Shown here piece by piece: positions 1 through 28,304 of a stretch of DNA of 28,304 bases. Within the stretch, counting starts at the first letter, position 1, and the number at the start of each line of letters is the position of its first letter. The notes under the pieces were generated by a model. That model was not told where the DNA came from, made no database searches, and saw only the letters and a list, made by a program, of their open reading frames with translations. The stretch is from a virus: IMG/VR virus record IMGVR_UViG_3300044845_000397, positions 1 through 28,304 of that record; one strand, 5' to 3'. Position numbers and translations under genes: made by a program.

Positions 1-85
1 ATTTCATTGAAACCATCTTCAATTCTGTTAATGCTGTTACAGACCCAATTGTAATCAAAAGAATTGAAGATGGTTTCAATGAAAT
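1..85. repeat. Perfect 26-bp inverted repeat at the window edge
   Basis: Bases 1-26 are the exact reverse complement of bases 60-85, with a 33-base spacer, and the left arm may extend beyond the window. Both arms lie inside the open reading frame of the truncated giant gene. The right arm encodes IEDGFNEI, which resembles later module ends such as AAFDEIID (near 1437) and is therefore likely native. The left arm is also in frame and readable (FIETIFN). It could be a real hairpin in the gene, or a fold-back artefact at the end of an assembled sequence. Confidence 0.85.
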
Positions 86-6128: not shown

Positions 6129-6550
6129 TGACAATTACAACTATAGTTACAAGTCAGTCACCTGACGCTAAACCGGTCGCTAAGTCTTTTACCTTAACGA
6201 CTAACTGGCAAATAATGATCGAGGTACCTCAGTATGAAGTACCTGAACTTGTGTTCGGTGGATCTACAACAGTTGAACCTGGTGTAGGTGAAGTTATTTC
6301 GCCTTTAATTCTATGCAATTTTACAGCTAATACTGCCTCAGTAGATGTTCGAGCTTATAGATATATAGAAAATGATGTATTTTTTATTGTAAGAAACTTG
6401 CAAATACCGGCTTATGACACTATCCCGTTACCGCTTAACGGACAATTCTTCAAAACTGGTGATTTATTAGAAATTAAAGCTGATACAAATTTAGCCGTTG
6501 ATGCTACATTATCGTTTACACTTGGACAATCTGAAAAGGATGATGTATAA
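6128..6550 (+). CDS. Small beta-rich protein of unknown function in the fibre operon (140 aa)
   Basis: The ATG overlaps the preceding stop in TAATG, and its own stop overlaps the next start in the same way, so it is probably translated by coupling between two very large fibre-type genes. A modest AAGGG ribosome site lies about 11 bases upstream. The sequence is acidic and rich in V, T, I and P, with hydrophobic strands such as [20 protein letters not shown] and [12 protein letters not shown]. There are no predicted membrane segments, no Cys pair and no catalytic motif I can name. The size and beta pattern suit a compact beta-sandwich that could act as a connector, collar or fibre-associated protein, but this is inferred only from position. 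I do not recognise a named family. Confidence 0.85.
6536..6540 (+). promoter_or_regulatory. Ribosome binding site for the collagen-like fibre gene
   Basis: AAGGA lies nine bases before the ATG at 6550 and inside the end of the 140-residue gene. It fixes the start at the TAATG overlap. Confidence 0.7.
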
Positions 6551-11758: not shown

Positions 11759-14700
11759 GTGACCGTTAAAGTTAAAGTTGGTCAGACTAGAAATATTCGT
11801 CTTGTAGCAGCAGGCGAAAAAAGACCAGTAATTGTTCCAGATTCTATTGTATTAGGTATAGATACGGTAGGCCAGTACGTTGCTCGCATCGATGGCGGGC
11901 AAGGTATCATTGTTGCGCCTGAAAATAATATAGAATCAGCTAATCTAGTAATTTCTCACGCTAATACAACTACAGAAGTAAGTAGTAACAATTCATTATT
12001 AGAGTTTATTAGAAATGCTTCTATTGACCAATTTGGTCATATAACATCATTAGTCGCTACAGGCCTTGATGCAAACAACTTTATTTCTGCAAATAATGTA
12101 ATATCATCAAAGCAAATTACATTTGGTAATACTGCCATTACGCTTGGTGGTTCAACAGACGAATTTACGGGTTTAAATCTTTTAGAAGTTGGTAGCTTTA
12201 CCATTTCTGCAAACACAATTTCTGCTCCCGACAATATTAATTTTAATATTGCAAATTCTGACGGTATCATTAATGCTGGTATTCATAGAATTATTAATGT
12301 AGAAGACCCAATTGGTCAACAAGACGTTGTTAACTTACGTTATTTAGAAGTAGAATTAGATAGAATTGAAACAACTGTTAAAGTTGTAAATGATCCTGTT
12401 CTACCAACAGACGGTGCTAATAAAAGATATGTAGACGCCCTTGTTCAAGGATTAGTTGTTCGCCCAGCAGCTTTAGCAGCAACAACCGCTGATCTTGGCG
12501 GGGTTTTTGAATCAGGCAACTCTACAGTATCTTCTACAATTACTTTAAATCCTATACAGTTTTTGTATATTGATGATGTTACTGCTTGGGATGTTGGCGA
12601 TAACGTTGTTGTAAAAAATCAGATAAATCCTTTAGAAAATGGTAGCTACGATCTTATACAAAAAGGTGATGCTAACACAGCTTGGATTTTCCAAAGAACT
12701 GAATGGTCAAACCAAAGTACAGAATTACCAGGTTCGTTTGAGTTTGTTACTGACGGTACAGTAAACGGTGGTACAGGTTGGGTTGCAACTGTTGCTGATG
12801 CTTCAAACTTTTTAATAAACGTAGATGCTGTTACTTGGACACAATTTTCAGGTGAAGGTACGTTTACCGCAGGTCAAGGTTTAACACTTACTGGCAGACA
12901 ATTTAGTGTTAATCAAACGCAGATATTATCTACAATTAATCCAGCAAATAATGCATTAATTATTTCTGGAACTGGCGCATTAAAGATTCCAGTTGGTTCT
13001 ACTCTTAATAGACCAACAGCTTCTCAAGGTATGATCCGTTATAACACAACGGATGGTAGATTTGAAGCATACGACGGATTGGCTTGGACAGGTCTTGGCG
13101 GTGTAGTTGATGTTGACCAAAATACAAAAATCACCGCGGAAAACTTTCCTGGTGCTAATAACAACGAATTAAAATTCTTTGCAAACGGAACTCTGTCTGC
13201 AATGTTTAACGCTAATACAGCGTATTTCTACGGAAACGTAGATGTTACTGGTAACGTTAACATTGGTGGTAATATCACAATTGGTAACGCTAATACTGAT
13301 ACAGTTAGTGTTGTTGCAGATTTTACAAGTAATTTAAATCCTGATGCAGATAGAACTTATAATCTTGGTTCTGAATCAAAGAATTGGTCTACACTTAATG
13401 TAGATACAATTAGAAGTTCCGACGAAATTGTAAAATTTAATACAACTGGAGCTCTTAAACTTCCTGCCGCAAATACAGCTTTAAGACCTACTGGCTCTGC
13501 TGGTATGCTTCGTTTTAATACAGACGAAAGCAGATTTGAAGGATGGGACGGAACTATATGGTCTGGTCTTGCAGGTTCTGTAATTGACTTAGACAGAAAT
13601 ACTTACATCATCGCAGAAACATCTGCAGGCGCTAATAACAATGAACTTGACTTTGTAACAGATAATGTTCAAAGAATGCAAATTGATGCAACAGGCGATT
13701 TGCTCTTTGGTGCTGGTCTTAATAAACTTGTAATTGATTTTGCTACAGGCGACATGTTTGTTAATGGCAAGTTAACAGCAAACAATAATTTAATTATAGA
13801 TCCTGTTGGTTATATTAGTGTTGCTAATAACACAATTACAGATCTTGCAGATCCAGTAAATCCTGGTGATGCAGTTAACTTAAACTATCTAAATAACGAA
13901 TTTGCTTCTGGTCTAACAATAGTTGATAATGCAAATACGTATGTTGATGGTATTAACTTACTACAAAGTCCGACTATTGAAATTGGTCGTGGTCTTGAAG
14001 TACAAAACATTAGTACTGCAAACAATTCATTTAAGATTGGTCTTGATGCACTAATGGCTGGTTCAACAGGCATATACGGTAACGACGGATTTATTCCGCG
14101 CATTCGTATTACTGAAGACGGTCGTATTGATTTTGCTACAGAAATTGCAGTAGAATTACAAGCAAACGCAATTCCTGACTTTACAGAAACATCGCGCGAC
14201 ATTATTGGTTTAATGTTTACCGATGGTATTCATGAAGGTGTTAGTGTATTCAATGACGATCTTAATGATCGCATGAATATTCTTGCGAATAATTTTGGCA
14301 TTACACTAGCTGGAGATGTTTCCGGCACAGCAACTGTTGCTCGCCTTGCTAATACAACTATTACAACAAGTTTAACTGCTAACTTCTTAACAACAGTTAC
14401 AGGAGATGCAAATAGTGGTATTATTGTTACGCACACACCTGGACCAAATACAACTGCAGACCTTGATTTAAATTTCACTTATTTAAATACACTTTATGTT
14501 CCAGTAACAGGCGGTACTTACACAGGTAACATTAGTGCACCAAGATTTGTAGATTCTAATAATACTAATTTTTACATGGATCCAAATGGTACTTCACGCA
14601 TTAACGATGTTGAAGTTGGCTTTGGTAGTACATTTTCGCAAATTAAAATGCGAGATGGATCTGGATCGTTTTCGATATTGTACGGCCAAGGCGGCAAAAT

Positions 14701-15724
14701 TGGTTTCTTAAACAACACTTTTAACTACGCGGCTTACTCCGAAAGAGCAACAGGAAATTGGGTTGTAGAAAACGGTGATGTAAGAGCAAAAAGATTTGTT
14801 GACGTTGATTCAACTACATATTTTGTTAATCCAGCTGGTACAGATACTCTATTAAGACAAATAACAGTACAAGATAAAATTACTGTTAGCAGCATTGCTA
14901 TTGGCGGCGATGTTGGTGTAAGAACTATTAAAACAACTACCGGCGTATTAGCTGTTGATGCAAGCGGTGGTATTAGTTTACAAGGTGCTGGCAACGATTT
15001 AAATGTTAATAGCTCTAAGATTACTAATCTTTTAAATCCTACATCGGGACAAGATGCAGCTACTAAGTCATATGTTGACGCAGCTGCTCAAGGTTTAAGA
15101 GTTATTCCTGCAGCGCTTGCTGCAACTACTACAAACTTAGATGCAACATTCCTTGCAGGTGTTCTTACTTCAAATAGCAATGGCGCATTTACTGTCGATA
15201 ATGTTACTGCGTTTGTTGTTGGTAGTAGAGTACTTGTAAAGAATCAAACCGCGCAATTACAAAACGGTTCATACGTAGTTACTACAGTTGGTACTCCATC
15301 TACTCCGTGGGTGCTTACACGCGGAGAATATTTTAACGAATCATCTGAGATTCCTGGCGCTTTCCAATTTGTAACTGACGGTACTCTAAATAGAAGTACA
15401 GGTTGGGTTGCAACCGTAACAGACGCTGAAACTTTTGCTCTTGGTGTTAATCCTGTTGTTTGGTATCAATTCTCTGGTGCTGGTACGTATACGGCTGGAG
15501 AAGGATTAAATTTAACCGGAACACAATTTTCCATTTTAGATGGAGCTATTCAAAATATTAAATTAGCTAATCCTAGCATAAGTATCGCTGGAGAAGCTGG
15601 TGCAAATACATCGATTGCTTTAGGTGCTACACTTATTATTGAAGGAACTGATGGCGTAAATACGACAATTTCCAACGGTAAAGTATCAATTGCAGTAGAT
15701 GTATTAGACGGTGGAACATTCTAA
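11759..15724 (+). CDS. Modular tail fibre protein, GTG start (1321 aa)
   Basis: The GTG start is chosen because of GGAGG eight bases upstream and contact with the previous stop. After an N-terminal region (about residues 1-220), a domain of about 160 residues occurs twice, at roughly residues 224-384 and 1105-1259. Both copies carry QGLxVxPAALAATT, V.VKNQ, NGSY, FVTDGT, TGWVAT and W.QFSG.GT. This domain is common in phage tail fibres. Between them lie two copies of an RPTxSxGMxRxNT-type segment (GLAWTGLG and TIWSGLAG endings) and two RFVDxxxTxY motifs of the kind repeated in the downstream giant gene. The C-terminus ends VLDGGTF. There is no S74 domain, so any assembly helper must be elsewhere. 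It is presumably trimeric and part of a tail fibre; the receptor is unknown. Confidence 0.9.
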   Translation: MTVKVKVGQTRNIRLVAAGEKRPVIVPDSIVLGIDTVGQYVARIDGGQGIIVAPENNIESANLVISHANTTTEVSSNNSLLEFIRNASIDQFGHITSLVATGLDANNFISANNVISSKQITFGNTAITLGGSTDEFTGLNLLEVGSFTISANTISAPDNINFNIANSDGIINAGIHRIINVEDPIGQQDVVNLRYLEVELDRIETTVKVVNDPVLPTDGANKRYVDALVQGLVVRPAALAATTADLGGVFESGNSTVSSTITLNPIQFLYIDDVTAWDVGDNVVVKNQINPLENGSYDLIQKGDANTAWIFQRTEWSNQSTELPGSFEFVTDGTVNGGTGWVATVADASNFLINVDAVTWTQFSGEGTFTAGQGLTLTGRQFSVNQTQILSTINPANNALIISGTGALKIPVGSTLNRPTASQGMIRYNTTDGRFEAYDGLAWTGLGGVVDVDQNTKITAENFPGANNNELKFFANGTLSAMFNANTAYFYGNVDVTGNVNIGGNITIGNANTDTVSVVADFTSNLNPDADRTYNLGSESKNWSTLNVDTIRSSDEIVKFNTTGALKLPAANTALRPTGSAGMLRFNTDESRFEGWDGTIWSGLAGSVIDLDRNTYIIAETSAGANNNELDFVTDNVQRMQIDATGDLLFGAGLNKLVIDFATGDMFVNGKLTANNNLIIDPVGYISVANNTITDLADPVNPGDAVNLNYLNNEFASGLTIVDNANTYVDGINLLQSPTIEIGRGLEVQNISTANNSFKIGLDALMAGSTGIYGNDGFIPRIRITEDGRIDFATEIAVELQANAIPDFTETSRDIIGLMFTDGIHEGVSVFNDDLNDRMNILANNFGITLAGDVSGTATVARLANTTITTSLTANFLTTVTGDANSGIIVTHTPGPNTTADLDLNFTYLNTLYVPVTGGTYTGNISAPRFVDSNNTNFYMDPNGTSRINDVEVGFGSTFSQIKMRDGSGSFSILYGQGGKIGFLNNTFNYAAYSERATGNWVVENGDVRAKRFVDVDSTTYFVNPAGTDTLLRQITVQDKITVSSIAIGGDVGVRTIKTTTGVLAVDASGGISLQGAGNDLNVNSSKITNLLNPTSGQDAATKSYVDAAAQGLRVIPAALAATTTNLDATFLAGVLTSNSNGAFTVDNVTAFVVGSRVLVKNQTAQLQNGSYVVTTVGTPSTPWVLTRGEYFNESSEIPGAFQFVTDGTLNRSTGWVATVTDAETFALGVNPVVWYQFSGAGTYTAGEGLNLTGTQFSILDGAIQNIKLANPSISIAGEAGANTSIALGATLIIEGTDGVNTTISNGKVSIAVDVLDGGTF
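12428..12910 (+). repeat. Fibre domain, copy 1 of an internal duplication
   Basis: From YVDALVQGLVVRPAALAATT to GRQFSV. It contains VVVKNQ, ENGSYD, FEFVTDGT, GTGWVAT and WTQFSGEGTFTAGQGL, all matched in copy 2 at 15071-15535. Confidence 0.88.
12968..13690 (+). repeat. Tandem RPT-GM-RxNT segments
   Basis: Two direct copies offset by about 474 bases, starting near 12971 and 13445. Both have TGALK, LNRPT or ALRPT, GM(I/L)R(Y/F)NT, RFE, a GANNNEL element and a hydrophobic end. The segment is typical of phage fibre shafts. Confidence 0.82.
15071..15535 (+). repeat. Fibre domain, copy 2 of an internal duplication
   Basis: From YVDAAAQGLRVIPAALAATT to GTQFSI. Conserved elements match copy 1, but the central region has diverged, so the duplication is not recent. 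Confidence 0.88.
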
Positions 15725-15728
15725 TATT

Positions 15729-15744
15729 TAACCTACATAGGTTA
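15729..15744. repeat. Short palindrome between two fibre genes
   Basis: TAACCTA and TAGGTTA form 7-base arms around CA, five bases after the stop of the 1321-residue gene. The stem is short and AT-rich and lacks a run of T, so a terminator is doubtful. It could be a weak hairpin or an operator-like site. Confidence 0.5.
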
Positions 15745-15751
15745 TTATAAC

Positions 15752-15758
15752 AAAGGGA
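15752..15758 (+). promoter_or_regulatory. Ribosome binding site for the 758-aa fibre gene
   Basis: AAAGGGA lies with the last G eight bases before ATG 15766, supporting that start. Confidence 0.75.
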
Positions 15759-15765
15759 CATAGAT

Positions 15766-18042
15766 ATGTCAACTATTAAGTTACGTAGGAGCGCCGTACC
15801 CGGCAGAATACCTACAGTCGAACAGTTAGATCTTGGCGAATTAGCCATTAACACAGCTGACGGCAAAATTTACTTTAAAAAATATGATGCGGGTGCAAAT
15901 ACTGAATCAATTATTGACGTATCAGCAAACTTAGATGCTAACGCGATCTTAGAGCTTTTAAAAGGTGTTGACGGAGCTAACTCAGGCCTCGATGCTGACC
16001 TTTTAGATGGACAGTCAGGTGCATATTACCTAGACTATAATAACTTCACCAACGTCCCTCCAGCCACCTTAGATTTAACTTTAAGTGGCAAAGTAACCGG
16101 TAATGCCTTCTCAAATACTGGCATTATGACACTGTTCACTGAGCTGGCAAATACAGGTGTTACTGCTGGTACATACGGTTCTGCTTCTCTTGTTCCAATT
16201 ATTACTATTGATGAAGATGGTAGAATTACTGTTGCAAATACAGTATCAGTTGCCGGTGTATCGAACACTTACTGGACATCTTCTAATAACACATTTACAA
16301 TTGAAACTGCTGATGGCGGCATTTATGATACCATCATTGAAGAATTTTCTGATATTACAGTAAACGATTTAACTGCAAATAATATCATTGTAAATGGTTT
16401 AGTTGATGGTCGTGATATTGCAGCTGATGGCGCTAAATTAGATTTATTAGAAGATGGTTTAGATCTTACACTAACTGGAAAAGTTACTGGTACCGCTTTT
16501 TCAAACAATGGGATAATGACTCTTGATACAGAGTTAGCAAATACCGGTGTTACTGCAGGAACTTATGGTTCTTCTACTCAAATTCCAGTTATTACCGTCG
16601 ACGAAGATGGTCGTATTACTGTTGCGAACACTACATCGGTTGCAGGTGTAGACGATTTCACATACGCTGACGCAAATAATACTATTACATTAGAAACCGG
16701 TGATGGTTCTGTATTTAATATTCAAACAAAAACAACAGTTGAATTAACTGGTAAAGTTACAGGAACTGCTAATTCATCTTCTGGAACTGTAAGTATTGAT
16801 GTTGAACTTGCAAATACCGGTGTTACTGCAGGCACGTATGGTTCTTCTACTGCAATTCCTATTATTACTATCGATGAAGATGGTAGAATTACTGTTGCAA
16901 ATACTGCATCTGTCTCAGGTGTAGACGATTTTTATTGGACTTCTTCTAACAATACTTTAATATTGCAAACAGGAGATGGAACAGCATACGTAGTTCCAAT
17001 TGAAGACTTTAACAATATTACAGTAAACGATTTAACTGCCAACAACATTATAGTTTCAGGTACGGTTGATGGCCGCGACGTCTCTGTAGACGGTGCTAAA
17101 TTAGATGGTATTGAAGATGGTGCTACAGCAGACCAAACAGCCGCAGATATTCGTGGTCTTGGTTTCTTTGACGTAACAAACGATGGTGGTGGTTCTGGTC
17201 TTGACGCTGATCTTTTAGATGGCCAACATGCTTCTGATATTATTGCTGCAGCAGTTAGCCAATCTGGGGCGCAAATTGGTAACGGTAGAGTAACCATAAC
17301 TGGTAACACAGGTCTCACTGGAACCGGTTCGTTTAATCTTAACGATTTTTCTAATACATCGATTACAATAACTCACGCTGATACTTCATCAGTAGCAAAT
17401 ACTTCAAATGCAAACGGCAACGTAATTACTGGTATTACTTTTGATACCTTTGGGCATACTCAAGCTGTTACGTCAACGGATTTAGATGGTCGTTACTATA
17501 CTGAAACAGAGTTAAACGCTGGCCAATTAGATAACAGATATTACACTGAAACAGAATTAAATGCTGGACAGTTAGATAATCGTTATTATACTGAGACAGA
17601 ACTAAATGCGGGCCAACTAGATAATCGTTACTATACTGAAACTGAAGCAGATTCTAGATTTGTAAATACTACCGGCGATACAATGTCTGGCAGTTTAACT
17701 GTTAATGCAGATATAATTCAAAAAGAATCTAAGTTTATTTCTGAAACGCAGACAACAACGTCTACTTCACAAGCTGCAATATATGCTTTTGCTCATGCTA
17801 CATTTAGTGCAGCAGAAGTTTTAATTACAGCAACAGAAACAACAAAAAAGCATATCACAAAACTACTAATAACGCATAACGGTTCCACTGCAATTGCAAC
17901 CGAATATGGTGTTGTGTATACTAACACTGAATTAGCAGATTACGATGTATCAATTGTCGGTCCGACATTACAAATATTAGCAACTCCAGCTAGTTCAATT
18001 TCTACTACATTTAAAATTGTAGCAACTTTGATTGATGCATAA
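15766..18042 (+). CDS. Repeat-rich tail fibre protein (758 aa)
   Basis: The N-terminus (LRRSAVPGRIPT, then QLDLGELAINTADGKIYFK) matches a common phage fibre anchor domain. Elements GLDADLLDGQ (two) and three repeats of about 90-130 residues follow, starting near 16075, 16471 and 16741. Each carries ELANTGVTAGTYGS and then IDEDGRITVAN or VDEDGRITVAN. A tandem of 15-residue YYTETELNAGQLDNR units (17491-17640) precedes a C-terminal domain of about 110 residues that begins near SKFISETQTTTSTSQ and ends IVATLIDA. The YYTETE repeat is a familiar trimeric shaft motif in phage fibres. A ribosome site AAAGGGA is well placed. The product is presumably a tail fibre that sits beside the larger ones; no self-cleaving domain is visible. 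Confidence 0.9.
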   Translation: MSTIKLRRSAVPGRIPTVEQLDLGELAINTADGKIYFKKYDAGANTESIIDVSANLDANAILELLKGVDGANSGLDADLLDGQSGAYYLDYNNFTNVPPATLDLTLSGKVTGNAFSNTGIMTLFTELANTGVTAGTYGSASLVPIITIDEDGRITVANTVSVAGVSNTYWTSSNNTFTIETADGGIYDTIIEEFSDITVNDLTANNIIVNGLVDGRDIAADGAKLDLLEDGLDLTLTGKVTGTAFSNNGIMTLDTELANTGVTAGTYGSSTQIPVITVDEDGRITVANTTSVAGVDDFTYADANNTITLETGDGSVFNIQTKTTVELTGKVTGTANSSSGTVSIDVELANTGVTAGTYGSSTAIPIITIDEDGRITVANTASVSGVDDFYWTSSNNTLILQTGDGTAYVVPIEDFNNITVNDLTANNIIVSGTVDGRDVSVDGAKLDGIEDGATADQTAADIRGLGFFDVTNDGGGSGLDADLLDGQHASDIIAAAVSQSGAQIGNGRVTITGNTGLTGTGSFNLNDFSNTSITITHADTSSVANTSNANGNVITGITFDTFGHTQAVTSTDLDGRYYTETELNAGQLDNRYYTETELNAGQLDNRYYTETELNAGQLDNRYYTETEADSRFVNTTGDTMSGSLTVNADIIQKESKFISETQTTTSTSQAAIYAFAHATFSAAEVLITATETTKKHITKLLITHNGSTAIATEYGVVYTNTELADYDVSIVGPTLQILATPASSISTTFKIVATLIDA
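16075..17020 (+). repeat. Three GVTAGTYGS / DEDGRITVAN modules
   Basis: Copies begin near 16075, 16471 and 16741 with (D/T/E)LxGKVTGxAxS, then ELANTGVTAGTYGS and DEDGRITVAN. The first and third also share WTSSNNTxxxxTxDG and an ITVNDLTANNIIV tail that the second lacks. Confidence 0.85.
17491..17655 (+). repeat. Tandem 45-base repeats encoding a fibre shaft
   Basis: Three full 45-base units (17491, 17536, 17581) and a partial fourth from 17626 encode RYYTETELNAGQLDN. Third-codon bases differ between copies, so selection on the protein has outlasted the DNA duplication. Confidence 0.9.
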
Positions 18043-18045
18043 AGT

Positions 18046-18053
18046 TATAAATA
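18046..18053 (+). promoter_or_regulatory. T4-type late promoter (TATAAATA) before the giant fibre gene
   Basis: Second exact match to the T4 late consensus, placed four bases after the previous stop. Transcription would begin near 18059, giving a leader of about 43 bases before ATG 18102. Confidence 0.83.
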
Positions 18054-18085
18054 TACCAATATCTAATTTCATAAAAAGCCTAACT

Positions 18086-18091
18086 GGGGAG
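18086..18091 (+). promoter_or_regulatory. Ribosome binding site for the giant fibre gene
   Basis: GGGGAG lies ten bases before ATG 18102 and fixes the start of the giant open frame. Confidence 0.75.
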
Positions 18092-18101
18092 AGTGAACCG
18101 A

Positions 18102-21100
18102 ATGGCGAATAATAAAAAATTCATAGTCAAGAACGGCTTAGAATCGCAAGAAAATGTCGTAATTGGCACAACAACGGACGACGGAGTAAATAAACTCCAA
18201 GTCACTGGAAGCTCAAAGCTTACAGGCGCCGTTGAAGTCACTCAATCAACCGCGGCAACACCTACTGTAAAATTTACTAACAGCGCTGGCCCATCTGCGC
18301 TTATTGCAGAATTTGCTGGTACAAGTCAAAGTGTTAGAATAACTAATTTTTCTGCTGGCGATTATTCAATTCTTAATACCGGACAAAGCAACGGTATTCG
18401 TCTTTTTAATGATACTGCTGGTCTTGATATCCTTTATAATGGTAACACTGATTTAGTATTTAATTCTACTGGTATTGACTTTAAACGTGCTCCAACATAT
18501 CTTGGCAATGTTTTCTGGAATGCAGGTAATGATGGTGCTAACTCTGGTCTTGACGCTGACTTAATTGATGGATTAGATTCTAGCCAATTCCTTCGCTCTG
18601 ACGAAAGCGATACAATGAATGGTAGCCTGATAATTACAGGCAACCTAACCGTTCAAGGTACAACTACTACACTTAGTACTGAAACTATTCTTCTTGCTGA
18701 TAATATTATTACTCTTAATAGTAATTACACTGGAAGTACACCTTCTGAAAACGCAGGTATTGAAGTTGAACGTGGCACACTAGCTAATTCAACATTTCAA
18801 TGGTTAGAAGCTTCTGATAAGTGGGAACTTGGCGGACCATCACTAGGATTGATTCTGGGTGACACTTCTAACCGCCAAGGGGCAATCACATCTTACGCAA
18901 ATTCGTTCATCATAGAGGCCGGAGGTGCATCTGGCGTATCAAGTGGTACAGTACTATTATCAGGTAGATTGTTCGGAACGGCTGCAAATGCAGGTGTAGC
19001 AGCATTCCACAATCCAACAACTAATATTTCATATGGTGAACTGCTATATAATGGTAGTCCTCGTATTCGTTCTGAAAGCGTTGGTGTAACTGCTCTCGGT
19101 AACTCTACAGTACAAGGTACTCTTACTGTTGGAACTGGCAGTGGTGGGGCGTATATTTACTTAGACGGTGCAGGTACAAACGGTACAATTTATTCGTCTG
19201 CTGGTGAAATTGGTTTCTTAAACGCATCTTTAAATTATGCTTTAAAAGTTGATACAGCTGGTGACGTAAGAGTCACAGACAATATCTACGCGCAAAAGTT
19301 TATTGATATTAATAACAACACATATCAAGTTGTGCCATCAGTAACTTCTGTTCTAAATAATATTGATTTAGAAGGTTCACTACGCCACAACGGTGACACT
19401 GATACATTTATTACTTTCCCTACTACAGGCAGAATTGGATTTACATTAGACGGTACTCAATACGGTTTAATGACAAACACTGCTTTCCAGTATACTGGAG
19501 ATGTGATTGCTGATAGATTCTTAGATCGTAGTGATAATGCTTATTATGTAGATCCTGCAAATTCTTCTGTTTTAAATACAGTTGGTATTGATTCCGATTT
19601 ATTCCATAATGGCGACACTGATACTAAGCTTTCATTTGCTACAGACTCAATTACGCTATCAACTGCTAACGTAGTAAGATTAACAGCCAACACAACTGCT
19701 CTTACATCGAGTCTTGATGTTTATGCGCCACGTTATTATGATTCAAATAACAACGCATTCTACTTAGATCCTGCTTCAACGTCAGAATTAAACTCTGCAA
19801 ACTTCTATAGTGCTTCTGCAAACAACGCTATTAACGTTGGTATCAATGCTGCTCAAAGATTCAACATTGACGTTACAAGCAGCCAAGGATATATTCGTTA
19901 TATTCAAAACGAAATAGATGCTACAGATCATTCAGTAAACTTTGAAATTATATCCGGTAGCGGTGGCCTAAATCGTTTTAACTTCAATAAAAATATTGAT
20001 GTTGGATCAAATACTATTACTGGCGGATTCGGTGTATTTACTTCTGGTGCGTATGCTTCTGTTTTCTATGATTACGATAACGAAGCTTTCTTCGCCGACT
20101 TAAACAATACCGGCAATTCTATTAACATTGCGGGTACGGTTCAAGCTGGCAACGGAACTCTTGCGCTTCCTTCATACACGTTTGGTTCTGATACTAACAC
20201 TGGAATGTATAGAGCCGGTGTAGACACAATAGGTTTCTCTGCAGGTGGTAACGACGAATTTAGAATTCTTACAACATATACGTTGTCTCCAGGTTCATCT
20301 CGTGCTCCTATCTTCTATGATAGCGATAATACAGCATACTATGGAGATTTTGCTAGCACATCAGTAATGAATCGTGTTGGTATCGATGATTACATTCAGC
20401 ACAATGGAAACATCACTTCTTACTTCGGTTTCTCAGCAAACAACATCTTTAAGTTGTTTACTAACGGCGCTGAAAGATTAAACATCGATGATAACTCAGC
20501 AGACTTCTCTGTTGATGTTTATGCACCTCGTTATTACGACTCAAACACAATTACTTATTACGGTGATTTTGCTGCAACGTCAGTAATGAACCGCATTGAT
20601 ATTGACGACTATATTCGTCACAATGGAAATACGACTTCTTACTTTGGTTTCTCAGCAAATAACATTTATAAGTTATTTACAAATGGTGTTGAGAGATTAA
20701 ACGTAGATGACGACTCTGCAGATTTCGCAGTTAACGTTTATGCTCCACAATATTACACTAATGATTATTTAATTCACAATGGTGATACAAATACTTATGT
20801 TGGTTTTGATGCTAATGACCAATTCGGTGTATGGACAAACGGTGTAAAACAAATTGCTGTTAATACAACAGCAGTAGCTATTAACCTTAATACAAATATT
20901 ACTGGCGCACTTGATGTTACTGGTAGAGCTACGATTGGCAACAGTTTAACACGCCCAGACAGTCTTGCTGTTTTAGCTAATTCTGCTGCGCGAATTGGTG
21001 GAGCAGATGTTCATCTTCACGTTGCTTCATTAGGTGCTGCTGCAAACTATGCTGTTGCATTGCAATCTGGTCGCCAATCAGATAATGTTAGCTTCCCGTT

Positions 21101-24100
21101 AGTAATGCAACCAAACGGCGGTAACGTTGGTGTTGGTACACTTACAGCCGGAGCAACTCTTACTGTTAATAAGAAAACTGCGCAAGGAAATAACCCATTT
21201 GCGGCAGGTACTTCATTATTCAGTTTAGGTGACGTTGACGTAGTTGATTACAGTATTAGAACAGACTCGTTTGGTAATATCTTCCACGTTAATGATAACG
21301 GCGGAAATCAAATTTGGTACACTTCAAGTGCTGGCGGTTTATTTGCAATTTTAAATACCGGTGATGTTGTTGTTAATAACGATTCAACTACATACGCAGT
21401 AACAGACGCAGCTACAAACTTTATTGCTACCGGAACTGCATCAAATAATAAATTGCACGTCACAGGCAGTATTTCGATGGGATCTATAAATGATGTCATT
21501 AGTATTTACGGTGCAGACGGTGCTAATACAGCAATCACTTCAGCCACATTCCTTGGTGTTAATGAATTAGGATTTAGTGGCGGTGGCGGTTTCTACATGA
21601 ACGATACTGCTACAGTTAGAGTTCGTGGTAATAAAGCCATCTCTACAACTGGTGATATTACTGGTGCCAGATTCATTGATGCAGGTAACAACACTTACAT
21701 CGTAGATCCAGCTGGTACTTCAGTAATGAACCGTATCGATATTGACGATTACATTCGTCATAACGGTGATACTGATAACTACTTTGGCTTTGCAGCTAAC
21801 GATACTTTCAGAGTATTTACTGGTAACGCACAACGCCTAAACATTGATAACGATTCAGCAGATTTTACTGTTAACGTTTATGCACCAATCTTCTATGATA
21901 GCGATAACAATGCTTATTATGGCGATTTCGGTGGAACATCAAACATGTCTCGTATTGATGTTGATGATTATATCCGTCATAGAGGCAACACTGATGCTTA
22001 CTTCGGTTGGGCTGGAAATAACAACTTTAAGTTATTTACAAACGGCACTGAGCGCTTTAACATAGACGCAGACTCTGCTGATTTTGCAATTAACGTTTAC
22101 GCTCCAAGATATTACGATAGTAATGACTCTACTTATTATGTAGATCCAGCTTCAGTATCAATAATGAACAATGTTTCATTTGGTGTTCCTGGTAATGGTT
22201 CAAACGTAAAAGGTCGTTTCTTATCTATTGAAGGCGACACTGACGCTAGTGGCGAAGGTTCAAGTCGTATCTTCTTTGCAGAACATAATTCAACAACTGC
22301 AGATCAAGATAAGTACGGTATGGCTCTTGCATATCGTGGCGGTAATGCAGCTATCAATAGTGTTACAGGCCAGCCAACTACATTAACTGGACTAGGCAAC
22401 GGCGAATGGGGTCTCCTTGGTTATGATAATAGTATAAGCGGCAACTGGGCAATGAGAGGCCCACGTTCATCGGCTTATGTTGAAGCTCGTGGCGATTTCC
22501 GCGCACCTATCTTCTATGATAGCAACAACACCGCATATTACGGTGACTTTGCTTCTACTTCAATAATGAACATTGTTCGTGTTGGCCAACTTCAGGTTGA
22601 TGACGCAACAACATTTATCGATAGCAGAGCGGGTGATTACGGTACTATTCGTGTAGAAGGTACTACTGGTGCAGGTTCATGGGCAGGTTACGCTATTCGT
22701 GATGACTGGGTCTTCATGTCAAACGGCGCAGCGTCTGCCGGTATTTACAATGACACTGACAATGAGTGGGCATTAGAAGCAGCTCAAAACTCTTGGACAA
22801 GATTATACGCTAACGGTGTCCATCAGCTTAGTGCTGAAAACGGTTATGGCTTTGCGCCAACTAGTATGCGTTCACCTATCTTCTATGATAGTGACGATAT
22901 TAACTATTTTGCAAACTTTGCGGCTGGTAACGCAAACAACGCAATCAAAGTAAACGGTAGAATCTTTAGAGAAGGTTTTACTGCTGATAGTGGTTCAACA
23001 AACACATTCTTGCTAGCGCAAGATGAAAACCAATTTATTTGGAACACTGCTACAAACTGGGGTATTTTCTGGGCTACTAACACGTCAGCTGCTTATCGTT
23101 ACACGCCGTTTGGCGATAACATGATTTCGTTTGTCGGTGCTGGAAATTTAAGAGCAGCTATTGACCTTGATAATGGTGCTGCGTATTTCCAAGGTGCTGT
23201 AACAGCAGCTGATTTTAAAATCAACGGTGGTAACGAAGATCTAGGTATCTTAAAAACATACGGATCCGGTCTTGGCGATACAATGATGTTTGACGGTACT
23301 GAGTACTGGGAAAAACGTGTTATTAAAGTAATGCAAGGCGCTGAAGCAAACGCGACAAATACTACTGCAGAATATGTTAAAAATAACAACGGCCCATTTG
23401 CTTCTACATATGCATTAAGAACAAATCAATATCGTACTTTTGATTCTGATTATATTCCAGTTGAACCAGGAGAACAAATTTACGGTGAAATTGCTGTAAG
23501 ATATATTTCTGGATCTGGTGGTCTTGTTTATATGGGTGTTCGCCGCTATGATAAAGACAAACTTGCAATTGCTGGCAATGATGGTATTGAATATTTCGTT
23601 GTTGGTGGCAACAACGTAACAGATACTAACTGGCAAACATTCCGCGGTCATACTACAATTCCTAGTTCACATACTCCGTTTAGTGGATCTGACGGTGGTG
23701 CATGTAAGTATGTTCGTGTAATTGTTCTTATGAACTATCCGAACGCAGGTGGTCCTGCTCTTCGTGAATACGGTCCTCCAGTTTTAAAGCGCGTAAATCA
23801 CTTAAGCAACCTTGTAACAGATTTTGACTTGAGCGTTGGTGGAAATGCAACTATCACTGGTGACTTAACTGTTGATGATATCACATCTGATGTTATCGAC
23901 GCTAACCTATTTAGAGATAGAAGCAACAACGCTTACTACGTAGATCCATACGGATTTACTAATCTGGGTCGTGACACTGGTACAGTAGTAGCAATTACAA
24001 AAACTGGCGCAAGTACTGACAATACATTAATTGTTACAAACACACGCGGTGATCATTCTTACGGTATTACTGGCGAGTTTAGAGTTGAAGGCACTGCTGG

Positions 24101-27100
24101 TACAGATAGACCATCTATTCTATTCTCATCTGGATATAACTCAAATACTTGGTCTGCAGGTTTTGGATTTACTGATAGTAATTTTAGAATTAAATACGAT
24201 CACGGCCATAGAAACGGTAGTTGGGGTACAACTTCTCTTGAAATAGACAGAAGCAGCAACGTTTGGGCTTATGGCTCTATGCGTTCACCTATCTTCTATG
24301 ACAATGATAACACTGGATACTACGGTGACTTTGCATCAACATCTAACTTAAACGCTTTAAATGCTGAAGCTACTACAGTTCGTCATCTTAACTTTAAAGG
24401 TGAAGGCGGCGATAGTGGTGTAGGTACTCGTGCTTACTCTATCTATCAAGAAGCTGGAGCTTGGTCATTCCCATATCCAGATTTAAGAATTGCATTCCAC
24501 ACTGGTATTAAGTTTGGAGCAAATTCAGGCTATCAAGGCATGCGTTTTTATGATGATTATACTATGGTCACGCAGGTCATGTCTATCAACAATGCTAATG
24601 ACGCGCTTGGTGCTAATAACGTTTACGTTAATAACAGTTTGCAAGCTGGTAGTTCATTAAGAGCTCCAATCTTCTATGATTCAAATGACACTAATTATTA
24701 TGGTGACTTTGCATCAACATCTGTTGTTAACGTTCTAAGAGCTAACCAACTACAACTTGATGGTTCTACATATACTATCGATTCTGTGTCTGATGATTAT
24801 GGTTCTATTGCAGTAAACGGATATAGAAACGGTTGGGCTGGTTACTCTATTAATAATCAGTGGGTGTTTATGTCAAGTGGTCCAGGTAATGCTGGTATCT
24901 ACAACGATGTTAACAATCAATGGGCTATTTTAGCTGCGCAAACTTCAGATGTTCAAATCTTCTTCAATGGAACATGGGAAGAGCGTTCACGTTCTGGATT
25001 TATGGAAGCTCGCGGATCTTACCGTGCACCAATCTTCTATGATTCAGATAACACAGCGTATTTAATTGATGGTAACGGCACATCAAGACTCTTAAACCTT
25101 AACGTTGATAACGTAATTGGTGGTAGCGTTAATGGATATTCTGAATTACTCTTAAGCAGAGATAACAGAACAATTGCGCCAAGTGAAGATCCGGCTGCCA
25201 GAATGCGTTTTGGTTTTACATCTTGGGCTAACAACGATTCGGCACCATATGCCGATTACTTGCATTTAAGATCTTATACAGATGCGTCTGGTGGTTCAGA
25301 TAATCTTATAACATTCCTAAAATCCGGTATTGGAATGCGTATTAGGCAACAAACTTGGGGTTCTGGAACTGCGTATTCTACTGTTAGAAACGTTACAATT
25401 TATAACGAAAACCCAGGCGCTGGAAATGATTTGTATGCTTCTATCTATTATGATAGCAATGATACTTCATATCGTGTAGATCCTACCGATACATCCATTA
25501 TAAGATATCTAAAAGTTAATACAGCGGGTTCAAGCTCAGGAACTCGTGCGTTAACTATTAAATCTGACGGACAAGCAGAAATTAACTTCGGGGCTTATCC
25601 CGGAAATTGGACATCCGCGCTGCAAATTCAGAATAACAACAATACTGACTTTGTGTGGATTTCTCCTCTTGATGATGGACAAAATGCAAGATTTAGAACT
25701 GGTGGGTCTGGCTTAGATATCTATACAGATGGTGGTTCTGGTGATGCTGGTACTTATTCAGCATTTATTGGTTCTGGATCTGTTCGTTCATCAATCTTCT
25801 ACGATCTAGATAATACGGGGTATTACTTAAATCTAAACGGTTCTTCAAACCATGCTGGTGATTTTAGAACTGATCAGTTTTATGCTCGTGGTTGGTTCCG
25901 CAATGATAACAGCGGCACTGGTCTTTATAACCAAGCTACTGCGATGCATTGGTATTCTGATACAAGTTCACGTTTTAGATTATACAGTACCACATCTACA
26001 TCACAGATTTTGATGGCTACAGCAGGTGATGTTGCACGTGGTTATGTTTATGCTGAAAACGATAATAGCATTGGTTTCCTTAACAACGGCGGAAGCTGGC
26101 GCATGCGAATCGTTAGCGGCGATTGGATAGACGTTGGTGGTTCAAGCATTCGTGCGCCGATATTCTATGACAACCAAGATACAACTTATTACGTAGATCC
26201 TAACAGCAGTGCTAGAATAGCAACAGTAGGCGTTGGTCTTGCTGCCAACAACGGCGGTAAACTAAGCGTAACTGGCGGACATGGCGATTCTAATATTAGA
26301 GTAACTGCTCAAGGTAACCAATTAGGTTCTGGTGTTACTTCATCTATGCATTGGTGGGTGTCTGAACCCGGCGTTACATGGAACGAAGGTGGTTTCGGAT
26401 TTAACGTAACCAACGATGGTGGTACTCCATCTGGCTTTGGACGTCCTAATACGTCTTATGGCCAAGGCTACATGAGATATACTACTGGCGGCGATATTGT
26501 TGTTTATAACACAAACACGTCTGGTACAAGATTCCAAAATATGGAATTCCTTTCAAACGGAACTGTGTATGCAAACAACTATCTAACTGGCGGCAACAGT
26601 CTTCGTGCTCCTATCTTTTACGATAGTCAAGACACTGGGTATTATAGCGATCCAAATGGCGGCAGTAGATTAAACACTACGGAAAATATTGGCAGAGTTG
26701 GATTTAGTAATTACCTTGTAAGCCGTAATGAAGGCGGCATGATGGGTAGCTACAACGCTACTGGTACTGCAGATAAGGTAATCTGGACTATCGGTGAAAG
26801 CTGGCCTCTTGGTAACATGTATGGTCTTGCTTATTCTTACGGCGGTTTTGGACCATTTGGAACTCAACATAAGCTTGTACTGAGAGAAAACGGCTCTACA
26901 TCTACACAATTTGGTTTTGGCGGCAATATGTATGTTGCGGGTTCTGGCGCAGCCCAAAACGACTTCCGTGCTCCTATCTTCTATGACTCAAATGATACTG
27001 CGTATTATTTTGATGGTGCAAGCGTAAACTCTACACGATTCGAAGGTGTGAGTAATAGAACAAAAGCAATGATGGGTCTACCAGGTAGAACCGGATTTAG

Positions 27101-28304
27101 TGCGGAATATTACTCAGCAAGACCTCGTATCACTGGTGATGTAAACTACTGGACCGGCTCAATGGGCTGGGGTACGATCGATATGAACGATCTTGCTCAC
27201 TGGGGTTCTGGTTTCATTGACTCTTGGAGCAACCCTGGTAACCAACCAAGTGGTACATCACATTGGGTAGGTACGCAAGCATGGCACTATACTGATAACG
27301 GCAATGCTCGTTATGGTTGGCAGCTAGTTGGTGGTCCAATTGGTAACCTTCGTTTCCGTCAATCATGGTCTGGCTTTAATGCATGGCGCACAGTTCCAAT
27401 GCTTGGTGTTAACGACGGTAACGGCGCTGCAATGTATGCTAACATTTATTATGATAGTGATAACACTGGTTACTACTGCGATCCGTCCGGTTCTTCAAAC
27501 TTAAACCTAGATTTAACAACTGACCAGTATTACGCTCGCGGTTGGTTTAGAAATAACAACGTAAATACAGGTCTGTACAATCAGGGTACTGGCAGCCACT
27601 GGTATTCATCAAGCTCGCAATACTGGAATGCAACTGGTAATAATAACGGCGCGGATATGAACATCCGTGGTTTAGCAGCTTATCAGGGTACAAGTCGTTT
27701 CTGGTTGCACGGTGCAACTGATGGTTACCAAGGATTCTTGAATTCAAACGGTTCTTGGTTGTTCAGAATGTCTCACAACGCTGGCCAATCGCCAGGTATT
27801 TGGTTCTACGAAGCTGGTGAAAGCTGGACTGGTAACATTGGTGCTGACGTTGGTAAGATTGAATACCACGCAAACCGTTTCTACATCGTGTCTGGTTCTA
27901 ACTCAGATCGTATTGTGCAGTTTAGACGTGACGGTAGTGATTTCTCTTATATTGCTAACGATGGTGTATTTGTTGGTACTGCAACTTCAGCTCGTTGGGC
28001 CGACTTAGCAGAACGTTATGAAGCAGACGCTATCTATGAAGCAGGTACAGTATTAGCTATTGGTGGAGATAAAGAAGTTACTCTTTATCAACCTGGTATG
28101 CCACTTGCTGGAGCAATATCAGTTAAGCCTGCTTATCGTATGAATGATGAGAATTACGGAAACGATAATTCTATCGAATCTAAGATGAATCCGTTTGTCG
28201 CTCTTAAGGGTCGTATTCCAGTTCTAATCAATGGTTCTGCTAAAAAGGGACAGTGGATTATTGCTGATAAAGACGGTAAAGGTAGAGCTGTAGATTACGA
28301 CCCT
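18102..28304 (+). CDS. Giant tail fibre/adhesin, 3' truncated by the window edge (at least 3401 aa)
   Basis: Starting at MANNKKFIVKNGLESQ, with GGGGAG ten bases upstream, the frame reads to the last base with no stop noticed. The N-terminal KFIVKNGL and the later LTVQGTTTTLSTETI segment are common in phage fibres. The main body has about 21 copies of a motif near APIFYDSxNTxYYxDP, spaced by about 70-350 residues and separated by varied beta-rich inserts. Among these are tandem DDYIRHNG units, paired WVFMS...AGIYND units, paired YARGWFRN...TGLYNQ units and a jelly-roll-like domain near 23280-23800. At the end, ARWADLAERY (from residue 3297) and EAGTVLAIGGDKEVTL resemble a C-terminal domain of other phage fibres that I associate with self-cleaving G2-type peptidases. 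Most of the gene is therefore present. It is presumably a host-recognition fibre; its receptor is unknown. Confidence 0.9.
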   Translation, partial: MANNKKFIVKNGLESQENVVIGTTTDDGVNKLQVTGSSKLTGAVEVTQSTAATPTVKFTNSAGPSALIAEFAGTSQSVRITNFSAGDYSILNTGQSNGIRLFNDTAGLDILYNGNTDLVFNSTGIDFKRAPTYLGNVFWNAGNDGANSGLDADLIDGLDSSQFLRSDESDTMNGSLIITGNLTVQGTTTTLSTETILLADNIITLNSNYTGSTPSENAGIEVERGTLANSTFQWLEASDKWELGGPSLGLILGDTSNRQGAITSYANSFIIEAGGASGVSSGTVLLSGRLFGTAANAGVAAFHNPTTNISYGELLYNGSPRIRSESVGVTALGNSTVQGTLTVGTGSGGAYIYLDGAGTNGTIYSSAGEIGFLNASLNYALKVDTAGDVRVTDNIYAQKFIDINNNTYQVVPSVTSVLNNIDLEGSLRHNGDTDTFITFPTTGRIGFTLDGTQYGLMTNTAFQYTGDVIADRFLDRSDNAYYVDPANSSVLNTVGIDSDLFHNGDTDTKLSFATDSITLSTANVVRLTANTTALTSSLDVYAPRYYDSNNNAFYLDPASTSELNSANFYSASANNAINVGINAAQRFNIDVTSSQGYIRYIQNEIDATDHSVNFEIISGSGGLNRFNFNKNIDVGSNTITGGFGVFTSGAYASVFYDYDNEAFFADLNNTGNSINIAGTVQAGNGTLALPSYTFGSDTNTGMYRAGVDTIGFSAGGNDEFRILTTYTLSPGSSRAPIFYDSDNTAYYGDFASTSVMNRVGIDDYIQHNGNITSYFGFSANNIFKLFTNGAERLNIDDNSADFSVDVYAPRYYDSNTITYYGDFAATSVMNRIDIDDYIRHNGNTTSYFGFSANNIYKLFTNGVERLNVDDDSADFAVNVYAPQYYTNDYLIHNGDTNTYVGFDANDQFGVWTNGVKQIAVNTTAVAINLNTNITGALDVTGRATIGNSLTRPDSLAVLANSAARIGGADVHLHVASLGAAANYAVALQSGRQSDNVSFPLVMQPNGGNVGVGTLTAGATLTVNKKTAQGNNPFAAGTSLFSLGDVDVVDYSIRTDSFGNIFHVNDNGGNQIWYTSSAGGLFAILNTGDVVVNNDSTTYAVTDAATNFIATGTASNNKLHVTGSISMGSINDVISIYGADGANTAITSATFLGVNELGFSGGGGFYMNDTATVRVRGNKAISTTGDITGARFIDAGNNTYIVDPAGTSVMNRIDIDDYIRHNGDTDNYFGFAANDTFRVFTGNAQRLNIDNDSADFTVNVYAPIFYDSDNNAYYGDFGGTSNMSRIDVDDYIRHRGNTDAYFGWAGNNNFKLFTNGTERFNIDADSADFAINVYAPRYYDSNDSTYYVDPASVSIMNNVSFGVPGNGSNVKGRFLSIEGDTDASGEGSSRIFFAEHNSTTADQDKYGMALAYRGGNAAINSVTGQPTTLTGLGNGEWGLLGYDNSISGNWAMRGPRSSAYVEARGDFRAPIFYDSNNTAYYGDFASTSIMNIVRVGQLQVDDATTFIDSRAGDYGTIRVEGTTGAGSWAGYAIRDDWVFMSNGAASAGIYNDTDNEWALEAAQNSWTRLYANGVHQLSAENGYGFAPTSMRSPIFYDSDDINYFANFAAGNANNAIKVNGRIFREGFTADSGSTNTFLLAQDENQFIWNTATNWGIFWATNTSAAYRYTPFGDNMISFVGAGNLRAAIDLDNGAAYFQGAVTAADFKINGGNEDLGILKTYGSGLGDTMMFDGTEYWEKRVIKVMQGAEANATNTTAEYVKNNNGPFASTYALRTNQYRTFDSDYIPVEPGEQIYGEIAVRYISGSGGLVYMGVRRYDKDKLAIAGNDGIEYFVVGGNNVTDTNWQTFRGHTTIPSSHTPFSGSDGGACKYVRVIVLMNYPNAGGPALREYGPPVLKRVNHLSNLVTDFDLSVGGNATITGDLTVDDITSDVIDANLFRDRSNNAYYVDPYGFTNLGRDTGTVVAITKTGASTDNTLIVTNTRGDHSYGITGEFRVEGTAGTDRPSILFSSGYNSNTWSAGFGFTDSNFRIKYDHGHRNGSWGTTSLEIDRSSNVWAYGSMRSPIFYDNDNTGYYGDFASTSNLNALNAEATTVRHLNFKGEGGDSGVGTRAYSIYQEAGAWSFPYPDLRIAFHTGIKFGANSGYQGMRFYDDYTMVTQVMSINNANDALGANNVYVNNSLQAGSSLRAPIFYDSNDTNYYGDFASTSVVNVLRANQLQLDGSTYTIDSVSDDYGSIAVNGYRNGWAGYSINNQWVFMSSGPGNAGIYNDVNNQWAILAAQTSDVQIFFNGTWEERSRSGFMEARGSYRAPIFYDSDNTAYLIDGNGTSRLLNLNVDNVIGGSVNGYSELLLSRDNRTIAPSEDPAARMRFGFTSWANNDSAPYADYLHLRSYTDASGGSDNLITFLKSGIGMRIRQQTWGSGTAYSTVRNVTIYNENPGAGNDLYASIYYDSNDTSYRVDPTDTSIIRYLKVNTAGSSSGTRALTIKSDGQAEINFGAYPGNWTSALQIQNNNNTDFVWISPLDDGQNARFRTGGSGLDIYTDGGSGDAGTYSAFIGSGSVRSSIFYDLDNTGYYLNLNGSSNHAGDFRTDQFYARGWFRNDNSGTGLYNQATAMHWYSDTSSRFRLYSTTSTSQILMATAGDVARGYVYAENDNSIGFLNNGGSWRMRIVSGDWIDVGGSSIRAPIFYDNQDTTYYVDPNSSARIATVGVGLAANNGGKLSVTGGHGDSNIRVTAQGNQLGSGVTSSMHWWVSEPGVTWNEGGFGFNVTNDGGTPSGFGRPNTSYGQGYMRYTTGGDIVVYNTNTSGTRFQNMEFLSNGTVYANNYLTGGNSLRAPIFYDSQDTGYYSDPNGGSRLNTTENIGRVGFSNYLVSRNEGGMMGSYNATGTADKVIWTIGESWPLGNMYGLAYSYGGFGPFGTQHKLVLRENGSTSTQFGFGGNMYVAGSGAAQNDFRAPIFYDSNDTAYYFDGASVNSTRFEGVSNRTKAMMGLPGRTGFSAEYYSARPRITGDVNYWTGSMGWGTIDMNDLAHWGSGFIDSWSNPGNQPSGTSHWVGTQAWHYTDNGNARYGWQLVGGPIGNLRFRQSWSGFNAWRTVPMLGVNDGNGAAMYANIYYDSDNTGYYCDPSGSSNLNLDLTTDQYYARGWFRNNNVNTGLYNQGTGSHWYSSSSQYWNATGNNNGADMNIRGLAAYQGTSRFWLHGATDGYQGFLNSNGSWLFRMSHNAGQSPGIWFYEAGESWTGNIGADVGKIEYHANRFYIVSGSNSDRIVQFRRDGSDFSYIANDGVFVGTATSARWADLAERYEADAIYEAGTVLAIGGDKEVTLYQPGMPLAGAISVKPAYRMNDENYGNDNSIESKMNPFVALKGRIPVLINGSAKKGQWIIADKDGKGRAVDYDP
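20385..20760 (+). repeat. First tandem pair of 73-residue DDYIxHNG units
   Basis: Starts at 20385 and 20604 (219 bases apart). Both read DDYIxHNGN, SYFGFSANNI, KLFTNG, ERLN, a DDxSADF element and VYAP. Only the first has the FYDS-type link; the second runs into a shortened copy (YYTNDYLIHNGD). Confidence 0.87.
21744..22184 (+). repeat. Second tandem pair of 73-residue DDYIRHxG units
   Basis: Starts at 21744 and 21963, again 219 bases apart, with the same order of elements as the pair at 20385. Both units end in an FYDS or YYDS motif. Confidence 0.87.
22590..22890 (+). repeat. DYG...WVFMS...AGIYND unit, copy 1
   Basis: Contains DYGTIRVEG, WAGYAIRDDWVFMS, AGIYNDTDNEWAL and an LYANG element, then runs into an SPIFYDS motif. 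Its partner lies near 24756-25050. Confidence 0.82.
23280..23800 (+). other. Jelly-roll-like insert in the giant fibre, possible glycan-binding domain
   Basis: About 170 residues with no FYDS motif: YWEKRVIKVM, a LRTNQYRTF linker, YIPVEPGEQIYGEIAVRYI, VYMGVRRYDKDK, YFVVGGNN, NWQTFRGH and KYVRVIVLMNYP. The strand order and the VRRYDKD / KYVRVIVLMNY pairing resemble carbohydrate-binding or galactose-binding-like domains seen in phage fibres. This is fold inference from sequence pattern only. Confidence 0.5.
24756..25050 (+). repeat. DYG...WVFMS...AGIYND unit, copy 2
   Basis: Contains DDYGSIAVNG, WAGYSINNQWVFMS, AGIYNDVNNQWAI and an FFNG element, then runs into an APIFYDS motif. It is the diverged partner of the unit near 22590-22890. 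Confidence 0.82.
25863..26130 (+). repeat. YARGWFRN...TGLYNQ unit, copy 1
   Basis: Contains FYARGWFRNDNSGTGLYNQ, HWYSDTSS, a VYAENDNSIGFLNNGGSW element and MRI. A second, extended copy lies near 27516-27780. The unit is familiar from phage tail fibres. Confidence 0.8.
27516..27780 (+). repeat. YARGWFRN...TGLYNQ unit, copy 2
   Basis: Contains YYARGWFRNNNVNTGLYNQ, HWYSSSSQYWNA, GFLNSNGSWLFRM and extra Asn/Gly-rich residues relative to copy 1. Confidence 0.82.
27990..28304 (+). other. C-terminal domain of the giant fibre (start of a processing or cap domain)
   Basis: From ARWADLAERY at residue 3297: YEAGTVLAIGGDKEVTL, LAGAISVKPAYRMN, then FVALKGRIPVLINGSAKKGQ and IIADKDGKGRAV. The GTVL-GG-EVT / VALxGRxPV / KKGxxI pattern matches the C-terminal domain of many phage fibres, including ones grouped with G2-type self-cleaving peptidases. 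The end is cut by the window, so catalytic residues cannot be checked. Confidence 0.55.

Follow-up and report, generated by a model that had tools for sequence, protein, structure and literature searches.

The gp12 protein of phage phi29 is an autocleaving trimerisation chaperone. Its mature form, gp12*, ends at residue 691 (PMC6542822). Earlier papers (PMC5332604, PMC2853527) class the radical-SAM genes of T4-like and Campylobacter phages with metabolic or iron-sulphur genes, and in the literature on phage radical-SAM RiPP systems we found no description of the cassette presented below. Here, we analysed a viral DNA stretch of 28,304 bases (the window), which is the whole IMG/VR fragment IMGVR_UViG_3300044845_000397, and in particular the giant gene at its right end (18102-28304, + strand). 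We estimate a probability of roughly 80% that this gene is complete and functional in the phage, is truncated in the window by the contig end, and encodes the distal tail fibre of a T4-type myophage with a modular shaft, a G2-like folding cap and a putative tip cassette downstream, of which we infer the trimeric state, the cleavage and the position in the virion. The module pattern, the cap type and the linked cassette were absent from the initial annotation of this DNA.

The initial annotation had proposed an open frame of more than 10.2 kb running off the right edge. The frame is indeed free of stops from GTG 18093 or ATG 18102 to base 28304, with 3,401 residues when counted from the ATG to the last base. 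Chance can be ruled out as its origin because the probability of such an open frame is ~10^-96 given the base composition of the window, and because each of the other five frames is interrupted many times (170 and 422 stops in the forward direction; 182, 181 and 267 in the reverse direction). Comparisons with orthologues gave, for example, a pS of 0.67 and a pN of 0.28 for the whole gene, and 0.54 and 0.10 for the C-terminal domain; this large excess of synonymous over replacement changes indicates that the frame is under selection. We assigned the start to ATG 18102 since a ribosome-binding site, GGGGAG (18086-18091, + strand), is located 10 nt upstream and is kept ahead of the start codon in L003, L008 and L009, L009 has the upstream GTG in a different frame from the fibre gene, and L004 uses GTG as the start codon at the position matching ATG 18102. 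A second record, IMGVR_UViG_3300042397_002506 (L003; 58,470 bases), overlaps the window at 15290-28304 with 11 differences over 13,015 bases (99.9% identity), 8 of which lie within the 10,203 nt of the fibre gene. L003 contains the whole gene of 3,426 codons, which begins at the same ATG and ends with ...VDYGTSGINTFDIIGIAIGDSNGGEVEVKI followed by TAA. Extension to the right, as the initial annotation had suggested, thereby located the stop: the window holds 3,401 of the 3,426 codons, and judging from L003, the TAA of its own gene would fall at about 28380-28382, 25 codons past the edge. Neither assembly has an in-frame stop or a frameshift within 18102-28304.

The gene was also thought to encode one of the larger phage fibre proteins. 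Complete orthologues have 3,113 (L004), 2,795 (L008) and 3,194 residues (L009), and four proteins with the same cap and weaker shaft similarity (G005-G008) have 3,920-4,221 residues. A two-module alignment scan of viral contigs returned 255 confirmed relatives, and the modules were found within one long open frame, mostly of 2,800-4,022 residues, in all 40 uncultivated contigs searched. Comparable giant genes are present in the cultured phages DSL-LC03 (3,161 aa), S-WAM2 (3,219 aa) and Phosso (4,555 aa). Because of these orthologues, contigs and cultured phages, the size of the fibre is unexceptional: it belongs to the upper range of phage fibres, yet it is normal for a family whose members span 2,795-4,221 residues. 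Likewise, the expectation that gene callers miss the gene applies to tools refusing genes that are open at a contig edge and not otherwise, as the complete gene stands in L003; the miss is a contig-edge effect only.

A T4 portal protein (PF07230, E 1e-161) is encoded in the 99.9% identical record (G001), and on this portal the phage of the window is identified as a T4-type myophage (Straboviridae-like/Kyanoviridae-like). The portal of the near-identical contig has its nearest isolates in the Sinorhizobium phiM12 group (54% identity), followed by Stenotrophomonas phage DLP_6 (51%) and cyanophages (49%). The best PHROG neighbours of the giant protein are tail fibres, and its repeats are of the tail-fibre type. 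A tblastn search with the whole protein against 50,697 phage records gave short patches only, a Pfam search with the entire fibre gave only chance matches such as CIF, and gp37-type homology was confined to a short repeat at residues 132-178 in common with gp36+37 of Vibrio phage nt-1. The name "fibre" given initially is supported by motifs common to phage fibre proteins, a cluster of fibre genes upstream, the T4 portal and a putative self-chaperoning domain at the C terminus.

Upstream in the window, the left edge truncates another giant gene (3-6128) of at least 2,041 residues with repeated C-x-RD-x-G-x-x-[IV]DA units, whose product is distantly similar to a cyanophage short tail fibre and structural proteins. 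Positions 6550-11340 encode a collagen-like fibre of 1,596 residues (Pfam Collagen, 6.5e-79) with a C-terminal Peptidase_S74 chaperone (9.5e-17). Since this S74-capped fibre is found beside the fibre with the G2-like cap, a single phage may use different cap types for adjacent fibres.

The giant protein begins with an N-terminal region (approximately residues 1-392; 18102-19277), best conserved among orthologues at residues 101-200, which is followed by the shaft (19287-27494). Here, the joint motif [YR]AP[IR][FY]YDS[DN][DN]TA[YF]YxDPASTS, with the longer consensus xGDxYAPIFYDSDNTAYYxDPASTSxxNxI, occurs 21 times between residues 400 and 3116; L004, L008 and L009 have 21, 17 and 21 copies, and shuffled proteins have none. 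The distances between joints fall into classes of 72/73, 83, 104, 110, 117-124, 137 and more residues, which recur across orthologues. The shaft is also repetitive at the DNA level, where two tandem pairs of 73-residue modules are seen (20303-20758 and 21662-22117). Large gaps in the orthologue alignments often start about seven residues ahead of a joint motif, and some gaps do not coincide with joint motifs. The clearest gap is exactly one module, the 72 residues 466-537 (19497-19712), which is absent in L009 and lies within a longer absence in L008, where residues 466-732 are missing save two. From these alignments, whole modules are seen to have been gained or lost between orthologues. Identity along the fibre swings from below 10% to 85%, as expected of a mosaic protein. 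The shaft is therefore best described as, probably, a string of about 20 bead-like modules joined by the YDSxNTAYYxDP element. DSL-LC03 was the sole carrier of the joint motif found among cultured phages. Within the window, the ORF at 11759-15724 (1,321 aa), which matches the T7 tail-fibre N-terminal domain, has two copies of the motif at residues 930 and 1013.

The last ~127 residues (3300-3426; from 27999 to 28304, with the final 25 residues outside the window) constitute a domain present at the C termini of other phage proteins, among them one from PA5oct that is annotated as identified in the virion by mass spectrometry. When the C-terminal 151 residues were used as the query, 41 related loci were retrieved. 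The protein of the window had no match to Pfam PF11962 (Peptidase_G2; cut-off 25 bits). Among 18 relatives of the cap, Peptidase_G2 appeared below or near the cut-off in 7, the best at 2.2e-6, with for instance 21.2 (L033), 20.0 (L035) and 20.9 bits (L011). Neither hhalign with the cap alignment nor pairwise blastp with the cap produced a significant or convincing alignment with phi29 gp12, and no match came from searching PDB sequences with the cap profile. The phi29 sequence outranked 1,000 shuffles. AlphaFold gave weak models for both the cap and a double module (mean pLDDT 57-58), partly because single chains were modelled; among PDB folds, the weak cap model was matched best by the C-terminal fragment of phi29 gp12 (3gqh; E 6e-3, probability 1.00, TM 0.38-0.42). 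WADLAERYE in the fibre aligns with WSDFAEYFE in phi29, placing ADxAE opposite SDFAE at 691-695, and the cut-site residues A59, D60, A62 and E63 are invariant across the 18 cap relatives. We regard the C terminus as a putative remote relative of the Peptidase_G2 autochaperone of phi29 gp12. Because of this alignment, the end of gp12* and the invariant A, D, A and E, self-cleavage is predicted between A3300 and D3301 (27999-28004), the counterparts of S691 and D692.

The S74 cap recurs on the same kind of shaft: all six of the tested module fibres that have no G2-like cap end in Peptidase_S74, so the same shaft, to judge from these C termini, bears either of the two caps. The cassette accompanying the G2-like cap is located beyond the window, at 10546-20264 of L003, which continues the window's phage past 28304, and it is assigned to this phage through that near-identical record. 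There, the fibre gene is followed by genes for a cupin-like protein of 145 residues (recognised by eye), a 259-residue protein, a SPASM radical-SAM enzyme, a 190-residue protein ending in ...CHASCHSNCHNSRSRR, and then three more radical-SAM enzymes and 2OG-Fe(II) oxygenases. A regular-expression search of all loci identified small proteins (126-315 aa) ending in CHxSCHxSCHxSRGRR directly 3' of G2-capped fibres, as well as in clusters of Phosso, Atu_ph07, SURPRISE13 and DT01. The DNA pattern of this tag was found in at least 120 stretches of viral contigs, whereas a search of 84,980 cellular genomes gave only 10, each with the same neighbours as in the viruses. Directly upstream of the tagged gene is a radical-SAM enzyme in 46 of 79 viral loci and a G2-capped protein in 24; a single locus, 1 kb long, has neither as a neighbour. 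The search pattern constrained the Cys, His and Arg positions of the tag in part but left Ser free, and the three Ser positions are conserved in 91/91, 89/91 and 90/91 distinct proteins. Both AGY and TCN codons are used for them, indicating that selection acts on the protein. On the 5' side of the tag, the proteins form seven groups without detectable mutual similarity, and NCBIfam has no model for them. L208 (11753-13467) encodes two long CHxS-tailed proteins, 270 and 309 residues from stop to stop, which outside the tag resemble neither other CHxS proteins nor each other.

The radical-SAM enzymes of the cassette reached only the SPASM domain cut-off in NCBIfam, and scored 34.3 of 370 bits with HxsB and 30.3 of 268 bits with HxsC, the HXS models. 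The enzyme is ~60% identical among unrelated cultured phages and occurs in 7 of 50,697 records; cultured phages with the cassette include Burkholderia phages FLC6, FLC8 and SURPRISE13, Pseudomonas phage DT01 and Sinorhizobium phage Phosso. In SURPRISE13 (L137:4714-5835) and DT01 (L138:7127-8701), the tail proteins 5' of the radical-SAM cluster have Trp-rich ends (ISGGWRLVWPPQWQ and VNSVWQQVWPPLWQD, respectively), which are possibly another substrate. The cassette enzymes would modify the CHxS-tagged tail-tip proteins in a RiPP-like manner.

Radical-SAM genes of the cassette type were present in 14/14 informative contigs with a G2-capped fibre, a fifteenth (G007) being left out as it ends too soon after the fibre gene, and in 0/19 contigs with module fibres without the G2 cap, two of which had a weak distant match. 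Among 78 loci or fibre regions selected by the modules, radical-SAM and CHxS genes accompanied the fibre in 3/3 with the G2 domain and 0/75 without it. These contig counts are not independent because the pair of cap and cassette has one origin within the module lineage, whose G2 contigs form one clade in the portal tree. Mere shared descent was rejected as the explanation for the link, since cap and cassette also occur together in a distant portal lineage (G005 and G008) and in rhizobial jumbo phages; these, together with the tag-pattern loci, provide independent support. We also rejected a strict dependence of CHxS proteins on a G2 cap, because the cassette-adjoining tail proteins of SURPRISE13 and DT01 show no such cap. 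No strong radical-SAM match was obtained on the contigs of many short G2-domain proteins (L017-L043). The co-occurrence suggests that the G2-like cap is part of a tip cassette that can be exchanged and that also comprises the CHxS-tailed small proteins and the downstream radical-SAM enzymes. The fuller proposal, that SPASM radical-SAM enzymes and 2OG oxygenases modify the shared tag and that the modified proteins form or decorate the fibre tip, is tentative, and we place it slightly below even odds.

Several other explanations would change this picture to different degrees. Repeated modules are a known hazard in short-read assembly, and 7 of the 8 differences from L003 fall in the last 203 nt, as might be expected if collapsed or chimeric repeats had been fused into a false long frame. 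We consider such an artefact highly improbable, as the same 10 kb recurs in a second record with so few differences and a single open frame of 2,800-4,200 residues is retained in orthologues at 45-65% local identity. More weight must be given to a C-terminal domain that acts solely as a structural cap and does not cleave itself, given that the Peptidase_G2 homology is remote and catalysis is putative; the invariance of the counterparts of phi29 D692, A694 and E695 in 18 relatives argues against it and makes it doubtful in our judgement.

The giant protein could also be another part of the virion, such as a whisker, a head-decoration fibre or a baseplate-associated filament, with the cap merely trimerising it. 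The adjoining ORF 11759-15724 matches head-decoration PHROGs as well as tail-fibre PHROGs, and related caps are found in proteins annotated as baseplate tail pins. Against this role, which we regard as unlikely, stand the tail-fibre type of the repeats and of the best PHROG neighbours, and the small genes directly 3' of the fibre, which occupy what we take to be the place of the adhesin gene 38 in T-even phages.

As a distal tail fibre, the protein would form a homotrimer with a shaft of about 20 beta-rich beads, and beads gained or lost whole at the joints would change the length and the surface of the fibre. The G2-like domain would serve as a folding cap, initiating trimerisation before it severs itself from the fibre at A3300/D3301 and leaves a mature fibre of ~3,300 residues. 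The gene defines a giant modular fibre family with a clear rule of bead addition; its members are common among uncultivated viruses and hardly represented in culture collections. The two self-processing caps, and the tight tie of one of them to a tag and radical-SAM cassette, suggest that phages chemically modify the proteins contacting their hosts. If true, RiPP-like chemistry would here be seen for the first time on the receptor-binding apparatus of a phage, and the tip cassette could be swapped as a whole for an S74-capped tip.

The S74-capped giant fibres L159-L162, L166 and L167 share the bead-and-joint shaft, a length of 3,100-4,000 residues and the T4-type phage background with the fibre of the window, but S74 replaces the G2-like cap and there is no radical-SAM/CHxS cassette. 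Synechococcus phage DSL-LC03, also of the T4 type, encodes a giant fibre-like protein (WJZ47903.1, 3,161 aa, annotated as a hypothetical protein) with joint motifs close to its C terminus; it has only five copies, however, and aligns over about one-quarter of the window protein with 29-45% identity. The gp12 protein of phi29 has a C-terminal domain of similar fold and a WxDxAExxE motif at the cut site, whereas its sequence identity with the fibre cap is very low, and it is a short podovirus spike with a pectate-lyase fold instead of a modular shaft. As in HXS and other SPASM radical-SAM RiPP systems, in which SPASM radical-SAM enzymes adjoin His-x-Ser repeat proteins, the phage enzymes are encoded next to a repeat-tagged protein. 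In contrast to those systems, the phage enzymes remain far under the HxsB and HxsC cut-offs, the tag consists of Cys-His-x-Ser repeats followed by SRGRR, and the cassette sits in tail operons.
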